From the NCBI RefSeq assembly GCF_003247215.1, contig NZ_QKAP01000092.1:1-64000 (forward strand): a stretch of DNA of 64,000 nucleotides. The letters run 5' to 3'. The position numbers and the translations under genes were made by a program. The notes beneath the pieces were generated by a model that was not told the origin of the DNA, did not search any database, and was given only the letters and a program-made list of their open reading frames with translations. The DNA is from Malonomonas rubra. Its GTDB lineage: Bacteria; Desulfobacterota; Desulfuromonadia; Desulfuromonadales; Geopsychrobacteraceae. This document shows positions 38,943 through 62,545 of the stretch, piece after piece (positions within the stretch are counted from its first letter, which is position 1; each line of letters begins with the position of its first letter).

Positions 38943-39866
38943 ATGACATTAAGGGATAATGAACTGTTGATTTTCGATGGAGCCTGCGGCACCAACCTGC
39001 AGCAGATGGAAATTCCGAGGTCTGCCTGGGATGACTGTGAGGGCTGTAACGAAATTCTCAACCTGACAGCCCCCGAGGTTATTGTTGCCCTGCATAAGAG
39101 CATGTACGAGGCCGGGGCGATGGTGGTCGAAACCGACACCTTCGGAGCCAGCAGGATCGTGTTGGGAGAATATGCCTTGCAGGACAAAGTCAAAGAGATC
39201 AACCGGCGGGCAGTGGAAAATGCTCACGCTGCAGCAAATGGAAAGTCTGGTCGATATGTGGCCGGCTCGATTGGTCCCGGCACCAAGCTGCCGTCACTAG
39301 GGCACATCGAGGTTGCTGAACTGGCGGCTGCGACTCGTGAACAGGCCGAAGCATTGTTGGAAGCTGGAATCGATTGTCTGATCATTGAGACCTGTCAGGA
39401 CTTGTTGCAGACCAAAACAGCGCTGGTCAGTCTGTTTGAGGTGTTGGATACGGCTAAACTCGAACTGCCGGTACTGGTTTCTGTGACCATTGAGCAGCAG
39501 GGAACCATGCTGGTTGGCTCCGATATTGGTGCAGTGCTGGCCACACTGGAGCCGTACCCGATTTTTTCCCTTGGCCTTAACTGCGCAACCGGGCCGCAGG
39601 ACATGCGCTCACATATCCGCTATTTGAGTCAACACTGGTCGCAGCGGATCTCCTGTATCCCGAATCAGGGGCTTCCCGAGGTGATTGATGGGCAGACGGT
39701 TTACCCGTTGACTCCGCATGAATTCGCCGAACAGATGTATCAGTTTGTCACCGAACAGGGGGTCAGTATCGTCGGCGGATGCTGCGGCACCAACCCGGCG
39801 CATATCAAGGCACTGGCCGATAAGTTGAACTGTGTCAAACCTCTGCCGAGGGAGGTGAGCCGATGA
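38943..39866 (+). CDS. Methionine synthase homocysteine-binding subunit (split MetH N-terminal module)
   Basis: The 307-residue protein is only the zinc-dependent homocysteine methyltransferase module. DGACGTNLQQMEIP opens it, and the zinc ligands are in GLNCATGP and GGCCGTNPAHI. In the usual cobalamin-dependent MetH this is the first 330 or so residues of one long chain. The next gene starts inside its stop codon (ATGA, four-base overlap) and carries all remaining modules. The two should form one enzyme that methylates homocysteine using methyltetrahydrofolate. Ribosome site AAAGG. Confidence 0.9.
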   Translation: MTLRDNELLIFDGACGTNLQQMEIPRSAWDDCEGCNEILNLTAPEVIVALHKSMYEAGAMVVETDTFGASRIVLGEYALQDKVKEINRRAVENAHAAANGKSGRYVAGSIGPGTKLPSLGHIEVAELAAATREQAEALLEAGIDCLIIETCQDLLQTKTALVSLFEVLDTAKLELPVLVSVTIEQQGTMLVGSDIGAVLATLEPYPIFSLGLNCATGPQDMRSHIRYLSQHWSQRISCIPNQGLPEVIDGQTVYPLTPHEFAEQMYQFVTEQGVSIVGGCCGTNPAHIKALADKLNCVKPLPREVSR

Positions 39867-42292
39867 AAACGTCCGTTGCTAGCCTCTACCAAGCAGTTGA
39901 GCTGAATCAGGAAATTCCGCCATTGTTGATAGGCGAGCGTTGCAACCCGAACGGCTCCAAAGCCTTCCGCGAAGCTCTGCTGGCCGAAGATTGGGAAAAA
40001 TGTCTGAAGGTGGGGCTCGATCAGGAAGCGCGTGGGGCGCAAGTGCTTGACCTCTGCGTCGCTTATGCCGGTCGTGATGAACTGGAAGACATGATCCGAC
40101 TGGTCAAATTATTTGCCGGCTCCTGCAAGTCGCCGTTGATGCTCGATTCAACCAATCCTGAGACCCTGGCAGCGGTGCTGCCGCTCTACCCGGGGCGGGC
40201 GATCATCAACTCCATTAATCTGGAAGACGGCGGCGCTATTCTCGATAAAATTTGTATGCTGGCAAAAAAATACGGCGCAGCCGTGGTTGCCCTGACTATC
40301 ACCGAGGAAGGGATGGCGCTGAGCTGTGAAAAGAAGGTCGCCACCGCCAAGCAGATTTACCGACTGGCAGTCGATAAACATGGCCTGCGGCCACAGGATA
40401 TTCTCTTTGACCTGCTCACTTTCACCGTTGGTTCAGGCGATGAAAAAATGCGTAACGCGGCGATTGAGACGCTGAATGCCATCAAGCAGGTCAGAAAGGA
40501 ACTGCCGGAGGTTAATTTTACCCTCGGGATCAGTAACATCAGTTTCGGCTTGCGCCCAGCAGCCCGTAAGGTGCTCAATTCGGTGTTTTTGCACGAAGCG
40601 GTCACTGCCGGTCTAAACACAGCTATTGTGGATGCCGCCAAGGTATTGCCATATGCCGCGATCAGTGATGAGGAGCGTAGCTACTGCCTCGACTTGCTTT
40701 ACGACCGCTCTGATGATGCGCTGATGAAATTTATCGAGCATTTCGAACAAGCTGTGGAGGAGAACGACGAGGGCGAGGACGAATCCCTGCTTGAAGAGCA
40801 GATAAGACACAAGCTCCTCAAAGGGGATAAGGATGGGTTGGAGGATTTGTTGAGTGAGCTTCGCGGCCGCTGGCAACCGCTTGACATCATCAATGGATTG
40901 TTGGTACCGGCGATGCGTGAGGTCGGTGAACTGTTCGGGCGCGGCGAGTTATTACTGCCATTCGTGTTGCAATCGGCTGAGGTGATGAAGCACTCAGTGA
41001 CGTTGCTGGAACCATATATGGAAAAGCTTGCCGATGAAGGGCGCACCAGCATCCTGCTGGCGACGGTTGCTGGGGATGTTCACGATATCGGCAAGAACTT
41101 GGTTGACATCATCCTCTCCAACAATGGTTATAAGGTGTACAATATCGGCATCAAGGTGCCTGCTGAAGAAATTATTGCCAAGGCGAAGGAGTTGCAGGTT
41201 GATGTCATCGGTCTCTCCGGTCTGCTGGTAAAGTCGGCGCTATTGATGAAAGAGAATATGGTTCAGTTCCAAGCAGCGGGTCTGACCCAACCGGTGCTGC
41301 TTGGTGGTGCAGCGCTGACGCCGAAGTTTGTCGCTGAGGATTGTGTGCCGAGTTATGAGAAACCGGTGGTCTATTGTGCCGATGCCTTCGCCGGCTTGAA
41401 GGCAATTCGCGATTTCGAGGCGGGCAAGTTACTGGCGACTCGCTGGGATTCCGCCGTTTTCCCAAGTAATCGGCCTAGCCCACAAGTGGAAGTGCTGGAT
41501 CGCTCACAGGAACCGCCTAAGGTACCTTTTCTTGGCGAACAGTTCGTTACTGATCTGCCAGCAGAGCCGCTTTTTGCCTATCTGAACCAGGCGGCACTGT
41601 TTCGTGGACGTTGGGGGTATCGGCGCGGCAAGATGTCGAAGGAGGAGTATGCCGAGCTGACCGAGGGGACGGTATTGCCTCTTTATGCTCGTTTGAAAGA
41701 GCAGGTATTGAGCGGAGGCTGGCTGCAACCGAAGGTGGCTTACGGCTACTTCGATTGCTGCAGTGAAGGAAACAGTCTGCTGGTGCAAAGCGCAGCCGGA
41801 GAAAAGCAGTTTAACTTTCCGCGGCAGTCCGCAGCACCGCATCTCTGTATCGCTGATTATTTTCGCACGCCAGAGGAGGGAGGCGACAGGGTCGGTTTCT
41901 TCATCGTCACCATTGGTGAAATGCTTGCGGAGCGAACCCACGAACTCTTTGCTGTGGATAGTTATCATGACTACCTGATGTTACATGGCCTCGGGGTCGA
42001 GCTGACAGACGCGCTGGCCGAATATTGGCACGAACAGATGCGTATTGAAGTGGGGATTCAACAGCAGCGCGATGCCGATATCGCTGCCTATGTCGCGCAG
42101 AGCTATCAAGGGTCACGGTACGGTTTCGGGTATCCGGCCTGTCCTGATCTGTCAGCGCACCTGCCACTGTTTGAACTCCTACAGGCGGAGCGGATCGGAA
42201 TAAAACTGACAGAATCTTTCGAGATGGTCCCCGAAATGAGCACTTCGGCGATCGTCGTTTATCATCCACAAGCCAAGTATTTTGCTGTCTGA
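39863..42292 (+). CDS. metH: Cobalamin-dependent methionine synthase, folate/B12/activation modules
   Basis: The 809-residue chain starts with a pterin-binding barrel ([24 protein letters not shown] ... [10 protein letters not shown], about 1-280). A B12 cap follows (about 300-400), then a Rossmann B12 domain with the lower-ligand motif DVHDIGKN. Last is the reactivation domain ending in [15 protein letters not shown], which binds S-adenosylmethionine. Presence of the activation domain is noteworthy, because many split methionine synthases lack it. The homocysteine module is in the preceding gene, overlapping by four bases. GGGAGGTG precedes the start. A rubredoxin gene follows after 14 bases. 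Confidence 0.95.
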
Positions 42293-52028: not shown

Positions 52029-53147
52029 ATGTCTATAGCACCATTTCGACGCCGTGTAGAGCAATTACTTGAGCAGGCTGATGTTGCCGTCGATGGCAAC
52101 CGCCCTTGGGATCTTCAGGTAAAGCATCCGAGGTTTTTTCAGCGGGTTCTGGCTCAGGGTTCGCTCGGTTTCGGAGAATCCTACATGGATGGCTGGTGGG
52201 AGGCGAAGTCTCCTGATCAGCTGCTCACTCGGCTGATAAGTGCCAAAATAAACAGTAAAGTCAAATCTGCCGTGGTCGCTTTTGATGCTTTTAAAGCAAA
52301 ACTGTTTAACCGACAGACTACCAAACGAGCCTTTCTGGTCGGAGAAAAGCACTATGATGCCGGCAATGATTTGTACCAGAAAATGCTCGATAAACGGATG
52401 ATCTACAGCTGTGCTTACTGGCAGGATGCCGAAACTCTCGATCAGGCGCAGGAGCAGAAACTTGATCTGATATGTCGCAAGTTGGATTTGAAGCCTGGGG
52501 AGAAGGTACTCGATATCGGTTGCGGCTGGGGGGGCACTGCCAAGTTCATGGCGGAACGCTACGGGGTAGAGGTGGTTGGCGTAACTATTTCTAGCTCACA
52601 GGCGGAACTAGCTCGAGAAAAATGTAAAAACTTGCCGATCGAGATCAGACTGCAGGATTATCGTAAGCTGAAAGGGGAATTTGATAAGATCGTCTCGGTT
52701 GGCATGTTCGAGCACGTCGGGCACAAGAATTATCGTACCTATTTTTGTAAAGTTTCCGAGTTGTTAAAGGATGATGGCTTGTTTCTTCTGCATACCATCG
52801 GTGGAAACCGGCCGGCATCCCGCACCGATCCCTGGATCGAGCGTTACATCTTTCCGAACGGGGTGATCCCCTCGTCACAGCAAATCAGTAAGGCGTTTGA
52901 AGGGATCTTTGTGCTAGAAGACTGGCACAACTTCGGGCCTGATTATGATCGGACCCTGATGGTTTGGCAGGAGAATTTCGAACATGCTTGGTCTGAACTG
53001 AAAGCTAATTACGACGAGCGCTTCCGACGGATGTGGCTCTATTATTTGAGCTGCTCGGCCGCCTCCTTCAGGGCACGTGACAACCAGGTCTGGCAGCTGG
53101 TCCTGTCCAGATATGGTATCCCAGGGGGACGACGGTTCCCGCGTTAA
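52029..53147 (+). CDS. cfa: Cyclopropane-fatty-acyl-phospholipid synthase
   Basis: This membrane-associated enzyme adds a methylene from S-adenosylmethionine across the double bond of phospholipid acyl chains. The N-terminal lipid-binding part has LGFGESYMDGWW. The methyltransferase core has HYDAGNDLYQKMLDKRMIYSCAYW, VLDIGCGWGGTAKFMAERYGV and SVGMFEHVGHKNYRTYF. The 372 residues are close to E. coli Cfa (382). GGGAGG precedes the ATG. Its end overlaps the convergent helicase gene by four bases. Confidence 0.95.
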   Translation: MSIAPFRRRVEQLLEQADVAVDGNRPWDLQVKHPRFFQRVLAQGSLGFGESYMDGWWEAKSPDQLLTRLISAKINSKVKSAVVAFDAFKAKLFNRQTTKRAFLVGEKHYDAGNDLYQKMLDKRMIYSCAYWQDAETLDQAQEQKLDLICRKLDLKPGEKVLDIGCGWGGTAKFMAERYGVEVVGVTISSSQAELAREKCKNLPIEIRLQDYRKLKGEFDKIVSVGMFEHVGHKNYRTYFCKVSELLKDDGLFLLHTIGGNRPASRTDPWIERYIFPNGVIPSSQQISKAFEGIFVLEDWHNFGPDYDRTLMVWQENFEHAWSELKANYDERFRRMWLYYLSCSAASFRARDNQVWQLVLSRYGIPGGRRFPR

Positions 53148-55668: not shown

Positions 55669-56022
55669 TTATTTATTTTTGAACTGCTCGCCCAGCCCCG
55701 CAAAGGGGGAATGTTTTAACTCAGGGCGGGCACTTTCCTGTACCCCGGCCAAGCGCTCTTCTTGAACGCCGCGGGTATGCTCATGGTCGTGACAGTAGAT
55801 GCAGAGCAATTCCCAGTTACTGCCGTCCGGCGGATTGTTGTCATGGTTGTGGTCCTTGTGATGAACGGTCAACTCGCGCAGTTGTTTGCCGGAAAACTCC
55901 CGCGTACATCGAGCACAGACGTGCGGGAACAATTTTAACGCCTGTTCCCGATAACCGGATTGCCGTTCTTGTTCTTCCTGGCGCATCCGGGCGACCATTT
56001 CTTTGCGTTGTCGATCATCCAT
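55669..56022 (-). CDS. YajD-type HNH nuclease family protein
   Basis: The 117-residue protein has the YajD pattern: a charged N-terminal helix (KEMVARMRQEEQERQSGYREQALKL) and zinc-binding HVCARC. The HNH core is LTVHHKDHNHDNNPPDGSNWELLCIYCHDHEH. It resembles small HNH endonuclease-like proteins of unknown role. Its ATG overlaps the MMPL gene stop by eight bases, so it is co-translated with that exporter for no obvious reason. Confidence 0.88.
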   Translation of the reverse strand: MDDRQRKEMVARMRQEEQERQSGYREQALKLFPHVCARCTREFSGKQLRELTVHHKDHNHDNNPPDGSNWELLCIYCHDHEHTRGVQEERLAGVQESARPELKHSPFAGLGEQFKNK

Positions 56023-58525
56023 TGCTTCTATCTTTAGCCGGGAATTTCAACAGCAACAGTGCCAGCAACGTAAGGTTGGCGAACATGGCAACTAGCATGG
56101 CCATCCCAGTGAACAGTCCGAAGTAGATAGTCGGGATGAAACTCGACAAGCCAAGGATCGAAAAGCCGATAATGATGGTGATCGAGGTGTAGTACATGGC
56201 CCGACCAACCGAATGGTGGCAGCGCTTCATGGCCGCTAGGTAATCTCCATCGACAGCCATTTCCTCGGTGAAGCGGTGTACGTAGTGGATGGTGTCGTCA
56301 ACCGCAATGCCGATGGTGATGGCGGCGATGGTGATGGTCATGATGTCGAGTGGGATGTGGAGCAGACCCATCAGGCCGAGTACCATCCCGGCGGAAATCA
56401 GGTTGGGGATGATGGCAATAATTGCCAGACGCAGCGAATGGAACTGCAGCATGAACATGATCATGATGACGAAAAAGACTACGCCGATAGTCATGATCTG
56501 CGAACTGAACAGGCTCTGCAGGACGTTGTTATAGAGCACGAACATGCCGGTCAGGTGCACCTGCTCGTCTTTCAGGCCAAGCTTTTCAGTCAGGTTAAGA
56601 CGGATTTTTTCCAGCAGTTTGTTACGCTGCAGATTCGGGTCTGAATCGATCACCCGTAAGGAGAACCTTACCTGATTGCCATCCTCCGACATGTAGGGGT
56701 GGAAAAGGGCATCAGCGATCGCCTTCGGCAGTTTTTTATGGATGACCGCCAGAGAAATGTTGTCGAGCGGCTTGTCCTCATTGACTATCTGCATCATTTC
56801 CATGGTGGTGGCCATCGACAATACCTTGCCGGTTTCCGGAAGTGCGTTCAAATAATTATGGATCTTTTCCAATGTATTAATTCGGTAGCTGTTGTACCAG
56901 TAGCTGCTGCCAGATAAACCGGCATCCGCCTGATCCTCACCGAAGAAATCGTCCGCAAACGGATCTTCTTCCGCCGCCTGTTTCTCCGCCTTTTGGGCAG
57001 CAAGAAACCCGGGGTCAGCATCAATAATGACATCGAGCGGTGTGGTCCCACCGAGCTGCTGGTCGATCAGCTCCATCCCTTGGTAGATTTCTGTGCTTGG
57101 TTTGAAATAGTCGATAAAGCGGTTTTCTACCGTAAGCTTTGAAATGCCGACGACGCTGAGAATAGCGATGCCAAGGAAAATGCTGGCAGTCAAACCGCTG
57201 CGATATTCAACCAAGTACGCGCAGGCGGCGGTGATCTTTCCGGTAATATCGTGGCGTGGGGTGAAATGGTTCGGTTTTTTAAACAGCATCAGGCCGGCGG
57301 GGAAGAGGGCAAAGGAGAGCAGGAGCGCGAAGGTGATGCCTATCGCCATCATCCAGCCGAAATCTATGACCGGGCGAATATCGCTGGTCAGCAGCGAGAC
57401 GAAGGCGACGATGGTGGTCAGGGCGGTGTAGATGCTCGGTACCGCTTTGGTGCGCACCATCTCCCGAACCATGGTCAATTGGTCGGCGTTTGGGATTTCC
57501 TCGAATAGCTCGTTGTAGCGGACAATCAGGTGGACGCAGAGCGACAGGGTGATAATCAACAGCAACGAGGTGAAGTTGGAGGAAACCACGGTGACTTTCC
57601 ATTCGATCCAGCCGAGAAAGCCGAACATAAACAGCACCGAAACGGCACAGCAGAGCATCGGCAGGATAACCCAACGGGGCTTGCGGAAGATCAGGATCAG
57701 CATCGAGACCAGAAACACCAGCACGCCAATACCGAACGAAGCCAGGTCGTGGCGGATAAAGTCGATCATGTCTGAGACGATCATCGGCACGCCACCCAGA
57801 TGCAGATTGGCCTTGTCACGGTGCTTGGCCATAATAGTGCGCACGACGGCAATGTCGTGTGCCTCCTGATCTGCCAACTGGGCACTGTAATTATCAAAAG
57901 CTTTTACCGCCTTTTCCAGTTGACGATTTTCTTCCTCCGTCAGGGGTTGTGTCAGCATTTTTTCCCGCAGGGAGTTGCGCTTTCCAAGAAGCTGATGATA
58001 GGTCTCATCTCGTTTGAAAATGACCTGCAGCGCCGTAGTTTTGGCGTCAGGGCTGACCAGCAGGTTGCTGTAAAATGGGCTGGTGGCAAACTCATTGCGG
58101 GCCAGATCGATATTGATATCTGGGGACTCCAAGGTTTTGACACCGTTACTTAGATCTCCCAGTGACAATCGGGGACTTTCGATCAAGGGAACATCGAGGA
58201 TACTGAAAACGGTTGCAACCCGTTCGATCTGCAGCAGACTGTTACGCAGCTTCCGCAAGTCATTAAGGGTATCAGTCGCGTAAAGATCAGCTTTTGGCGT
58301 GTAGGTGATGACAAGAAAGTCGTCTGAGCCGTATTTGGCGCTGATCGAACGGTAGTACTTCAGATCCTGATCGTTTTCCAGCAGTAAAGAATCGGCTGAT
58401 GCATCGAGGCGGAAGTTTCGGCTGTATGAACCGACCATCGCTACCAGCAGTAGCATGATTAAAATCGTGATAACTGGATGCTTGAGGACCAGACGCTCGT
58501 AGAATTTGAGGATTGCTTCGTACAT
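56015..58525 (-). CDS. MMPL/RND-family exporter with sterol-sensing-type membrane domain
   Basis: The 836-residue protein has two repeats of the RND/MMPL fold. Helix 1 (HPVITILIMLLLVAMVGSY) is followed by a periplasmic domain and a five-helix block (FGIGVLVFLVSMLILIF ...). Then come a second helix, a second periplasmic domain and a second block with MTITIAAITIGIAVDDTIHYVHR, the proton-relay region. It resembles MMPL proteins that move lipids (MmpL3, HpnN) more than drug pumps. No adaptor or outer-membrane channel genes are adjacent. It is divergent from the ACP-FAAL-acyltransferase gene, 275 bases away. Confidence 0.88.
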   Translation of the reverse strand: MYEAILKFYERLVLKHPVITILIMLLLVAMVGSYSRNFRLDASADSLLLENDQDLKYYRSISAKYGSDDFLVITYTPKADLYATDTLNDLRKLRNSLLQIERVATVFSILDVPLIESPRLSLGDLSNGVKTLESPDINIDLARNEFATSPFYSNLLVSPDAKTTALQVIFKRDETYHQLLGKRNSLREKMLTQPLTEEENRQLEKAVKAFDNYSAQLADQEAHDIAVVRTIMAKHRDKANLHLGGVPMIVSDMIDFIRHDLASFGIGVLVFLVSMLILIFRKPRWVILPMLCCAVSVLFMFGFLGWIEWKVTVVSSNFTSLLLIITLSLCVHLIVRYNELFEEIPNADQLTMVREMVRTKAVPSIYTALTTIVAFVSLLTSDIRPVIDFGWMMAIGITFALLLSFALFPAGLMLFKKPNHFTPRHDITGKITAACAYLVEYRSGLTASIFLGIAILSVVGISKLTVENRFIDYFKPSTEIYQGMELIDQQLGGTTPLDVIIDADPGFLAAQKAEKQAAEEDPFADDFFGEDQADAGLSGSSYWYNSYRINTLEKIHNYLNALPETGKVLSMATTMEMMQIVNEDKPLDNISLAVIHKKLPKAIADALFHPYMSEDGNQVRFSLRVIDSDPNLQRNKLLEKIRLNLTEKLGLKDEQVHLTGMFVLYNNVLQSLFSSQIMTIGVVFFVIMIMFMLQFHSLRLAIIAIIPNLISAGMVLGLMGLLHIPLDIMTITIAAITIGIAVDDTIHYVHRFTEEMAVDGDYLAAMKRCHHSVGRAMYYTSITIIIGFSILGLSSFIPTIYFGLFTGMAMLVAMFANLTLLALLLLKFPAKDRSNG

Positions 58526-58800: not shown

Positions 58801-61620
58801 ATGAGTGGGCAACAACAGTCAGAGCGAGATCTGCACGATTTGCTGGATATCATACAGCAACTCAGCATGCAGTTACATCCTGACCAGTCGCAACGGACTG
58901 TTGCAAATCTTGATAGCTCACTCGATAAAGACCTGGGGCTTGACAGCTTGGGAAGGATGGAACTGCTGCAAAGGCTCGAAAATCACTTTCAAGTCAGTTT
59001 GTCAGAACAGGTCTTTATCGATGCCGAAAAGGTTTCCGATCTCTGGATGGCTGTGACTAAGTCTTCGCCTGCTGGAGATTCTGGAGTGGCTGGGAAACTG
59101 GATCATAGAGTGTTCTCTGTCACAGGTGAGGATGTTGGTGTTCCGTACAGCGCCGAGACACTGACGGAAGTTTTGAGCTGGCACAATGACAGGCATCCCA
59201 ACCGTACTCATGTCTATTTTTATGCTGATCAAGACGAAGCTGAAGAGCTGACCTATCGTCAATTGTACAATGGTGCAATTCGAGTAGCCTCAGGGTTGCA
59301 TAGGCATGGTTTAAATGTTGGTGATCCTGTAGCGATTATGCTGCCAAGCTCAGCCGACTATTTCTTTGCTTTTTTCGGTATATTAATGGCCGGTGGGGTT
59401 CCGGTACCTATTTATCCGCCGGCACGAAAATCTCAGATGGAGGAGCACTTACGCAGACAACAGGTAATTCTAGACAACTGCGCAGCGAAGTTGATGATCG
59501 GCATGCCGGAAACGCTGCTTTTTAATCGCCTTTTACAAGCCAGTTTGTCTGAGTTGATGGAGGTCTTGACGGTTTCGGAACTTCAGGAATCTGCAACATC
59601 AGGTTTTGTCTTGCAAATTCTCCAGCCAACCGACACCGCATTTTTGCAATATACTTCCGGATCGACCGGCAACCCGAAGGGAGTCGTGTTGAGCCATGCA
59701 AACCTACTGGCCAATATCAGGGCAATGGGGGGTGCGATCAAGGTCGATGAAAAAGACATTATCGTCAGTTGGTTGCCTCTCTATCACGACATGGGGTTAA
59801 TCGGCTGTTGGCTTTCCTGCCTATATTTCGCTGCCCCGCTAGTCTTGATGTCGCCGTTCGACTTTCTCTCTCGGCCATTGCGTTGGCTGCAGGCGATTCA
59901 CCGTTTCCGCGCCACCATATCGGCAGCACCGAATTTTGCCTATGAAATTTGTCTGGCCCGGCTCTCCGAAAAACAACTTATGGGCCTCGACTTATCTTCC
60001 TGGCGTTGTGCATTCAACGGCGCTGAAGCTGTCAGTGCCGATAGTGTGGAACGGTTTGTGAAACGCTTTTCCGCATATCGGTTCCATCACGAAGCGATGA
60101 TGCCGGTTTACGGTATGGCTGAATGTTCGGTCGGGCTGGCTTTCCCGCCGCTTGGGAGAGGGCCGGTAATTGATTTGATCAACCGTGAAATATTTACCCG
60201 TTCCGGGCAGGCAAGGCTTGCCGCTGAGGACGAAAAAAATCCATTGCAGTTTGTTGCTTGTGGGCAACCGCTCTATGACCATGAAATTCGTATTGTTGAC
60301 CGACAGGGGCGTGAACTCCCAGAGTGCCAAGAAGGGCGCATCCAGTTTCGCGGTCCTTCTACTTGCAGCGGTTATTACCGCAGTCCGGAAAAGACAGCCC
60401 AGCTGTTCGATGGTGATTGGTTGGATTCGGGTGATCTCGGCTATATACGCTCGGGGGATGTATTTATAACTGGGCGTTGTAAGGATCAGATTATCATTGC
60501 CGGACGTAATATCTATCCGCAGGAACTGGAAGAAGCGGTCGCTAAGATTAAAGGAGTGCGCAAAGGCAATGTAGTGGTCTTTGGTTCCTCCGATCCGAAA
60601 ACTGGGACCGAAAGACTGGTAGTGCTGGCGGAAACCCGAGAAACAAATACGAAGGTATTGGGTCAGATACGCACTGCTATTACAAAACTGTCCTTCGATC
60701 TTCTCGGGGTGCCTTTGCATGAAATTGTCCTTGCTCCACCGCAGACAGTACCCAAAACATCAAGTGGAAAAATCCGTCGTGCGGCTACTCGTGAATTCTA
60801 TGAAAAGGGATTGCTTGTTCAATCGCTGAAACCCTGGAAACTGTATTTTCATATTGTGATGCTCGGCGGAACCGGTCTTTGGCGCAGAACTTGGCGGTAT
60901 TTTGGACAAATCACTTTTGCCGGTTGGAGCTGGGGGGTCTTTTGTTTGCTTTCGCTATTGCTCTATCTTTCACTGATTTTGTTGCCGAAGTTCAGTTGGC
61001 GCTGGGCGGCGATGCGCTTAGCTGTTAATGGCTTGCGTTACCTCACTATGGCGTCAGTGACGGTAGAAGGGAAGAATAACTTGCCGAAAGTTCCTTGCGT
61101 CATAGTTGCCAATCATGCCAGCTACCTGGATGGTTTCGCTCTGGTCGCTTGTTTGCCTAAGCATCTGGTGTTTGTAGCCAAGCGGGAATTGTCGAAAAAT
61201 ACTTTGCTGCGACTGCCTTTTTTACGGCTTAGGGCCGAATTTGTTGAGCGATTCGACCGACAGCAAGGACTTAAGGATGCTCGAAGGTTGGGGCAGCGTG
61301 CCAAAGGAGGAGAGTCGTTGATGTTTTTCCCGGAGGGCACCTTTACTCGACAGCCAGGGTTGCAGGAATTTTACATGGGAGCTTTCGTGATCGCCGCTGA
61401 AGCTGATCTGCCGGTGGTGCCGATTGCAATCCGCGGAACCCGTTCGATTTTGCGCGGTTCGGATAAGTTCCCCCATCGTGGGACGATCTGTGTCACTATC
61501 GGTGAACCGATAAGCCCAAATGCAGCAAACAGGTCAAACTGGCAAAAGGCACTTTTCCTGCGTGAGCGCAGTCGGCGTTTTATCGCTCAAAATTGCGGTG
61601 AACCGGATCTAGTCCGCTAG
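58801..61620 (+). CDS. Fused acyl carrier domain, fatty acyl-AMP ligase and PlsC-type acyltransferase
   Basis: The 939-residue chain joins three enzymes. Residues 10-85 are an acyl carrier domain with the phosphopantetheine serine in DLGLDSLGRMELL (Ser49). Residues 115-690 are an AMP-forming fatty-acid ligase with YTSGSTGNPKG (about 285), SWLPLYHDMGLIG (about 322, the FAAL hallmark), CRDQ-like GRCKDQIIIAGRNIYPQELE and PKTSSGKIRR. A hydrophobic stretch (about 700-730) is followed by an LPLAT domain with NHASYLD (His772/Asp777) and FPEGTFTR (about 844). A plausible flow is: fatty acid activated as acyl-AMP, loaded on the built-in ACP, and transferred to a lysophospholipid or other acceptor. It is divergent from an MMPL exporter gene. 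The domain order differs from Aas, which has the acyltransferase first and no ACP. Confidence 0.9.
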   Translation: MSGQQQSERDLHDLLDIIQQLSMQLHPDQSQRTVANLDSSLDKDLGLDSLGRMELLQRLENHFQVSLSEQVFIDAEKVSDLWMAVTKSSPAGDSGVAGKLDHRVFSVTGEDVGVPYSAETLTEVLSWHNDRHPNRTHVYFYADQDEAEELTYRQLYNGAIRVASGLHRHGLNVGDPVAIMLPSSADYFFAFFGILMAGGVPVPIYPPARKSQMEEHLRRQQVILDNCAAKLMIGMPETLLFNRLLQASLSELMEVLTVSELQESATSGFVLQILQPTDTAFLQYTSGSTGNPKGVVLSHANLLANIRAMGGAIKVDEKDIIVSWLPLYHDMGLIGCWLSCLYFAAPLVLMSPFDFLSRPLRWLQAIHRFRATISAAPNFAYEICLARLSEKQLMGLDLSSWRCAFNGAEAVSADSVERFVKRFSAYRFHHEAMMPVYGMAECSVGLAFPPLGRGPVIDLINREIFTRSGQARLAAEDEKNPLQFVACGQPLYDHEIRIVDRQGRELPECQEGRIQFRGPSTCSGYYRSPEKTAQLFDGDWLDSGDLGYIRSGDVFITGRCKDQIIIAGRNIYPQELEEAVAKIKGVRKGNVVVFGSSDPKTGTERLVVLAETRETNTKVLGQIRTAITKLSFDLLGVPLHEIVLAPPQTVPKTSSGKIRRAATREFYEKGLLVQSLKPWKLYFHIVMLGGTGLWRRTWRYFGQITFAGWSWGVFCLLSLLLYLSLILLPKFSWRWAAMRLAVNGLRYLTMASVTVEGKNNLPKVPCVIVANHASYLDGFALVACLPKHLVFVAKRELSKNTLLRLPFLRLRAEFVERFDRQQGLKDARRLGQRAKGGESLMFFPEGTFTRQPGLQEFYMGAFVIAAEADLPVVPIAIRGTRSILRGSDKFPHRGTICVTIGEPISPNAANRSNWQKALFLRERSRRFIAQNCGEPDLVR

Positions 61621-62300: not shown

Positions 62301-62435
62301 ATGGCTAAAATTCGAGAAAAGTATGAAGATGAAACCGAAAAAAGGATGTGTAGTTTTGCATGTAAATTGTTGATTTTCGCTCTGTTGACAGCTGCGCTGT
62401 TCGTCGGCTATTCATTCAGTGTTTTGATTGGTTAG
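62301..62435 (+). CDS. Small single-helix membrane protein (44 residues)
   Basis: Too short for the ORF track. ATG 62301 follows AGAGGA. The peptide has a charged N-terminus (MAKIREKYEDETEKRM), two cysteines (C17, C21) and one hydrophobic helix (LLIFALLTAALFVGYSFSVLI). A fair promoter lies about 80 bases upstream. I do not recognise a family. The charged head and single helix suit a small inner-membrane regulator or subunit. Confidence 0.55.
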   Translation: MAKIREKYEDETEKRMCSFACKLLIFALLTAALFVGYSFSVLIG

Positions 62436-62504: not shown

Positions 62505-62545
62505 CCCAAAGGCCCCACGCAATGTATTTGCGTGGGGCCTTTGGG
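62505..62545. terminator. 18-base perfect hairpin downstream of fumarase
   Basis: CCCAAAGGCCCCACGCAA pairs with TTGCGTGGGGCCTTTGGG around a 5-base loop. It lies 20 bases past the fumarase stop and about 70 bases past the small peptide gene, between convergent genes. The core GGCCCCACGC stem is followed by TTTGGG on both strands rather than a long T-run, so it should act in both directions but may stop transcription only partly. Confidence 0.65.

Follow-up and report, generated by a model that had tools for sequence, protein, structure and literature searches.

A widely scattered family of ACP-FAAL-PlsC fusion proteins with a recurrent UMF1-type neighbour suggests a lipid-repair system

The 939-residue protein encoded near the end of the window (the whole stretch of 64,000 nucleotides analysed here) belongs to a widely scattered, established family in which an acyl carrier (ACP) domain, a fatty acyl-AMP ligase (FAAL) and a PlsC-type acyltransferase are fused in that order; the arrangement is neither rare nor peculiar to the window genome. 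Judged from sequence, we put it at somewhat better than even that the fusion is a single-chain, CoA-independent, fatty-acid-activating O-acyltransferase, Aas-like in its work, built differently and using a lyso-lipid as acceptor. The gene is often found beside a UMF1-type membrane transporter, which suggests a lipid-repair system. The novelty lies in the wiring of the family and in its link to UMF1 rather than in the individual domains, and no description of either was found in the open-access literature, whose coverage is incomplete and in which subscription papers are mostly not included. Features of the locus are collected in Table 1.

Table 1. Positions of the fusion gene, its domains and its divergent neighbour in the window
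Feature	Position	Strand	Basis
ACP-FAAL-PlsC fusion gene, 939 aa	58801..61620	+	Intact ORF, lone ATG start; full-length relatives found
Acyl carrier domain, residues 36-81	58906..59043	+	Pfam PP-binding 2.1e-8; phosphopantetheine S49 at 58945-58947
FAAL-type adenylating domain, residues 118-672	59152..60816	+	Best structural match 3pbk, E. coli FAAL, TM 0.92 by target
FAAL-specific helix, CoA pocket entrance, residues 352-359, PFDFLSRP	59854..59877	+	Model, alignment
Long helical hairpin, residues 678-727 and 731-749	60832..61047	+	AlphaFold models, pLDDT about 90
PlsC-type acyltransferase core, NHASYLD 771-777, FPEGTF 843-848	61057..61431	+	Pfam 3e-25, PDB 5kym
MMPL/HAE3-type RND transporter, 836 aa, divergent from fusion	56015..58525	-	Possible partner, weakly supported

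The window is contig C101 of a MAG of 3.13 Mb (99.5% complete, 3.75% contamination). An ORF check of the window found exactly one ATG start for the fusion and a closing TAG, and the reading frame and Pfam agree with the first-pass annotation, which had described one chain carrying ACP, FAAL and PlsC domains in succession. All three Pfam matches exceed their curated cut-offs: PP-binding at residues 36-81, AMP-binding at 127-526 (2e-75) and Acyltransferase at 753-877. The motifs quoted in that annotation are present exactly, with DSL at 48-50, SWLPLYHDMGLIG at 323-335 and NHASYLD and FPEGTF as tabulated. Across the family, conservation of these motifs and of the catalytic residues is far beyond chance.

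FAALs adenylate fatty acids and load them onto holo-ACP while refusing CoA; in the E. coli enzyme (EcFAAL), residues W224, M231 and F279 lie at the bottom of the CoA pocket and T252-R258 make up the FAAL-specific helix (PMC8460268). The nearest solved structure to the middle domain by sequence is that of E. coli FAAL (3pbk), and alignment to it places W324, M331, F379 and residues 352-359 of the fusion in register with these features. Of the CoA-rejection residues, W324 and F379 occur in all 110 aligned fusions and M331 in 108 of them; K657 is present in 110 of 110, and F355 and P359 of the FAAL-specific helix are invariant in the same set. Structure prediction, suggested earlier as a way to look for the CoA-blocking insertion, found it: the AlphaFold model of the fusion (mean pLDDT 85.6) has a helix at 352-357. 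Both the 4-residue helix insertion and the W/M/F residues are missing from E. coli Aas, the genome's own Aas-like protein, ElbD-like ligases and CoA ligases. The top 24 PDB fold matches of the middle domain are all FAALs, with TM scores up to 0.92, and CoA ligases score 0.67-0.83; among NCBIfam models, PRK09192 'fatty acyl-AMP ligase' ranks first, with a score below its full-length cut-off. Because of the CoA-rejection residues, the FAAL-specific helix and the fold match, the middle domain is, by alignment and model, a true FAAL and not a CoA ligase. The first-pass assignment thus holds, and the placement among CoA ligases that it had named as the competing outcome did not emerge.

The same annotation had identified the carrier domain by its DSL serine, and had asked whether that serine is conserved. 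S49 is kept in 106 of the 106 aligned fusions that reach the site; the remaining 4 of the 110 start at contig ends and have no S49 column. The C-terminal part, read earlier as a PlsC-type acyltransferase, is modelled as a PlsC fold preceded by a helical hairpin (mean pLDDT 89.8) and matches T. maritima PlsC (PDB 5kym) in sequence (2e-33) and in fold (TM 0.77). The hairpin is placed like the N-terminal helices of 5kym and, going by the models, probably attaches the protein to the membrane. Among relatives with sequence there, the catalytic residues H772 and D777 are found in 108 of 108 and E845 in 107 of 107. NCBIfam models rank AGP-acyltransferase, then LplT-Aas, then OlsA for this domain, and its score against TIGR00530 (1-acylglycerol-3-phosphate acyltransferase), 84.5 bits, is under the cut-off of 102.95; this counts against the lyso-lipid acyltransferase reading preferred here.

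Among 10 genomes of the window's genus, 5 have a strong match to the fusion, as do 16 of 200 genomes in the class sample. In the phylum sample the fusion is found in 17 of 394 genomes, a count that leaves out three stand-alone FAALs (G227, G356 and G394), which matched through the middle domain alone and were rejected as members. A species-wide scan returned at least 591 related stretches, other FAALs among them; the 80 that were kept are all fusions or fragments cut at contig ends. The kept fusions span Pseudomonadota, Thermodesulfobacteriota, Actinomycetota, Planctomycetota, Acidobacteriota, Nitrospirota and others, and the fusion also occurs on plasmid replicons in Methylobacterium, Sinorhizobium, Cupriavidus, Paraburkholderia and Photobacterium. 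Its presence across phyla and on plasmids marks it as a scattered but established family and no oddity, and a survey of domain order gave ACP-FAAL-PlsC in every relative not cut at a contig end.

Phyla are intermixed in the fusion tree, and the version present in two members of the window's genus (G002 and G008) is distant, at 52% identity, and falls among other families. Since the tree mixes phyla and one genus holds two distant versions, the pattern points to repeated horizontal gain, the alternative being differential loss of old paralogues. In these two genomes (loci L020 and L021) the 52% identical fusion adjoins homologues of the window's metH-type genes (38943-42292), which in the window lie 16.5 kb from the fusion; this suggests a separate acquisition at another site. 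The scattered spread, taken with the two separate versions within one genus, suggests that the fusion is an accessory, mobile trait of lipid repair or fatty-acid salvage.

A four-step scheme may be drawn from the domains. A phosphopantetheinyl transferase would arm S49, and the window genome has two candidate genes of the phosphopantetheinyl-transferase (ACPS) family. The FAAL domain, whose catalytic residues are all present, would make acyl-AMP from free fatty acid and ATP, as its family does. With its CoA pocket blocked, the FAAL domain would, by analogy with FAAL biochemistry, pass the acyl group to the fusion's own ACP arm. The carrier would in this way be loaded in cis and would feed the PlsC domain, which, held at the inner membrane by its hairpin, would pass the acyl group to a lyso-lipid hydroxyl. 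The likeliest acceptor would be a lysophospholipid arriving from the outer leaflet, and the UMF1/Atg22-type MFS protein encoded next to the fusion in many relatives is a candidate flippase, as LplT is for Aas. Counting against a CoA-free scheme is an adjacent CoA-type long-chain ligase in six loci, which the scheme leaves unexplained.

Aas acylates lysophospholipids with free fatty acid that it has activated on ACP; through its PlsC-type domain it binds the flippase LplT, an MFS protein, and the two form a physically coupled MFS-acyltransferase pair (PMC11416262). The fusion is similar in that a single chain would activate free fatty acid and bears a PlsC-type acyltransferase, and in that an MFS protein is a frequent neighbour or fusion partner. 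However, in Aas the PlsC domain comes first, the synthetase is not of FAAL type and the ACP is a separate cellular protein, whereas the fusion has an ACP built in at the N-terminus, a FAAL ligase and PlsC last; the associated MFS protein, moreover, is of UMF1/Atg22 type and not LplT. That Aas has its acyltransferase first and lacks a carrier had been claimed at the outset and proved correct for both E. coli Aas and the window genome's Aas-like protein. Because domain order, ligase type and the built-in carrier all differ, the fusion was rejected as a member of the Aas family. Full or partial LplT-Aas family matches are also held by 7 of 25 fusion genomes, the window's among them, and the window genome has a PlsC above cut-off and, on a short contig, a 718-codon piece of an Aas-like gene. 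Since such genomes carry these genes too, the fusion is no simple replacement for Aas or PlsC; it is likely to add to them, with a differing acyl chain, acceptor or growth condition.

Neighbour genes were clustered at 112 loci, taking every ORF that lies no more than 400 bp from the fusion. None of them is universal across those loci, and in most genomes the fusion gene is isolated. The commonest immediate neighbour is the UMF1/Atg22-type (PF11700) MFS transporter, found at 12 of 112 loci by clustering and 13 of 112 by profile; a rough estimate puts the expected number of adjacent cases at about 0.06 if the gene is single-copy in a genome of about 3,500 genes. It is followed by the CoA-type long-chain ligase (6 of 112 loci) and then by generic ABC and signalling families. 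The transporter gene occurs in four geometries (same-strand upstream, same-strand downstream, divergent and convergent), and on the fusion tree its adjacency must have changed at least 11 times. The linked MFS proteins fall in at least three UMF1 subclades, so the link has probably formed more than once. Of the 17 fusion genomes in the phylum sample, 15 have PF11700, versus 173 of 394 genomes overall, with a Fisher p of 1.5e-4 by genome and 0.015 by genus, ancestry not being corrected for. Nonetheless, UMF1 is not adjacent in about 88% of fusion loci, which, together with the several subclades, leaves room for a loose partnership or one of a different kind. The sole PF11700 gene of the window genome is at contig position 72808-74103 (-), 8.8 kb past the end of the window; that it shares a contig with the fusion, 11 kb away, is suggestive only. 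It may be that the fusion and a UMF1/Atg22-type MFS form a second, independently evolved counterpart of LplT-Aas, in which lysophospholipids moved inward by UMF1 would be given back an acyl chain by the fusion, which would draw on free fatty acid and its own carrier and need neither CoA nor free ACP, but we hold this larger proposal only tentatively and consider it rather doubtful.

As a multi-domain comparison, ElbD is nearer than Aas. This myxobacterial ether-lipid enzyme has reductase, ligase, carrier and acyltransferase domains (PMC9426513, PMC9131029), and like the fusion it joins a ligase, a carrier and an AGPAT-type acyltransferase on one chain; it differs in its N-terminal fatty-acyl reductase, its non-FAAL ligase and its carrier, which sits between ligase and acyltransferase. 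The comparison was made through descriptions of ElbD and through ElbD-like proteins of the same phylum found through PF07993. Pfam finds the reductase domain NAD_binding_4 in one of these proteins, L176, with no match in the window protein; L176 has the order reductase-ligase-ACP-PlsC, and its ligase differs from that of the fusion at all FAAL-specific sites. On the grounds of this order, the non-FAAL ligase and 25% identity to L176, the reductase-free fusion was rejected as an ElbD family member. Three complete genes of this ElbD-like order (L176, L177 and L178), encoding about 1450-1470 aa, were observed in one Desulfobacterota family (f78); a HAD-type gene lies just upstream in two of them, and an ether-lipid cluster there is possible.

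Stand-alone and didomain FAALs (E. coli FAAL 3pbk; NocH and the hapalosin FAAL-ACP) share the catalytic and CoA-rejection features of the fusion, and the two didomain proteins also have a cognate ACP fused. Their product feeds PKS/NRPS, whereas in the fusion the FAAL stands between an N-terminal ACP and a C-terminal PlsC acyltransferase; the PlsC fusion and the non-PKS/NRPS setting are unlike the FAALs described in PMC8460268 and PMC11837247. PlsC/LPLAT enzymes such as T. maritima PlsC have the same NHxSxxD and FPEGT motifs and the same fold with its N-terminal hairpin, but in the fusion this domain sits downstream of its own acyl-activating module and is under the curated LPA acyltransferase score.

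These comparisons bear on three other explanations. The fusion could be a specialised second-acylation enzyme of lipid synthesis, not of repair, that places a particular free or unusual fatty acid on a lyso-aminolipid, as OlsA does, or on another polar lipid. The lyso-ornithine-lipid acyltransferase OlsA does follow PlsC and Aas among the models matched by the PlsC domain (45.6 bits), enzymes of the LPLAT family take many lyso-lipids as acceptors (PMC11631085), and the gene is accessory and patchy in a host that already has PlsC and an Aas-like protein. We nevertheless think it unlikely, if worth serious consideration, as the OlsA score is weaker than those of the AGP-acyltransferase and Aas models and no aminolipid N-acyltransferase recurs as a neighbour in the 112-locus clustering. 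Far less probable is an ElbD-like enzyme of ether-lipid synthesis that has shed its reductase domain. Reductase-less homologues have been reported (PMC9131029, PMC9426513) and the joining of ligase, carrier and acyltransferase is shared, but the domain order and ligase type of the same-phylum protein speak against it, as do an identity of 25% to the window protein versus 39% for a stand-alone FAAL and the lack of any recurring Elb-type flanking gene among the 112 loci.

A secondary-metabolite loading enzyme, whose PlsC domain would release the fatty acyl chain onto a natural-product hydroxyl, would accord with the service of most described FAALs to PKS/NRPS lines (PMC8460268, PMC11837247), with the second ligase that adjoins the fusion in L138, L144, L146, L160, L162 and L104, and with the divergent MMPL/RND exporter in the window. 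However, no PKS/NRPS genes are present in the fusion flanks examined, and the MMPL gene is linked to the fusion in two genomes only; we regard this explanation as improbable. At one of these loci, on a Cupriavidus plasmid (L160, 5077-15039), the fusion lies within a same-strand gene run with a second AMP-binding ligase, an acetate-CoA ligase, pyruvate dehydrogenase E1/E2 and a free acyl carrier protein; FtsH and a universal stress protein are encoded nearby, and pieces related to this run are also found near loci L075 and L162.

A CoA-independent acyltransferase acting on lyso-lipids, which is the reading preferred here, would matter beyond this genome. The FAALs described so far serve polyketide and lipopeptide synthesis, and a widespread FAAL family wired to a membrane-lipid acyltransferase would place FAAL chemistry in general lipid metabolism. 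The fusion would show acyl transfer that stays inside one protein and does not draw on the CoA and ACP pools. The UMF1 link, if true, would give a large MFS family that is still uncharacterised ('unknown major facilitator 1') a role in transport and extend the flippase-acyltransferase principle beyond LplT-Aas.

In the window the fusion gene is solitary, with the divergent MMPL/HAE3 gene upstream and a convergent class I fumarase gene downstream. A 66% identical copy of the MMPL/RND gene is divergent from the fusion in one same-genus genome (L018) and absent at other fusion loci; as it adjoins the fusion in only that one genome besides the window's, the transporter was rejected as its partner. 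A second membrane-lipid gene, encoding a 372-aa cyclopropane-fatty-acid synthase-like methyltransferase (CMAS), is located about 6 kb from the fusion, at 52029-53147 (+). Between the fusion and the fumarase gene is about 0.9 kb without a long gene, and a possible 44-residue single-helix membrane protein is encoded at 62301-62435 (+). A strong G+C-rich hairpin, at about 62507-62545, is located 3' of this small reading frame and is common to the convergent fumarase gene.
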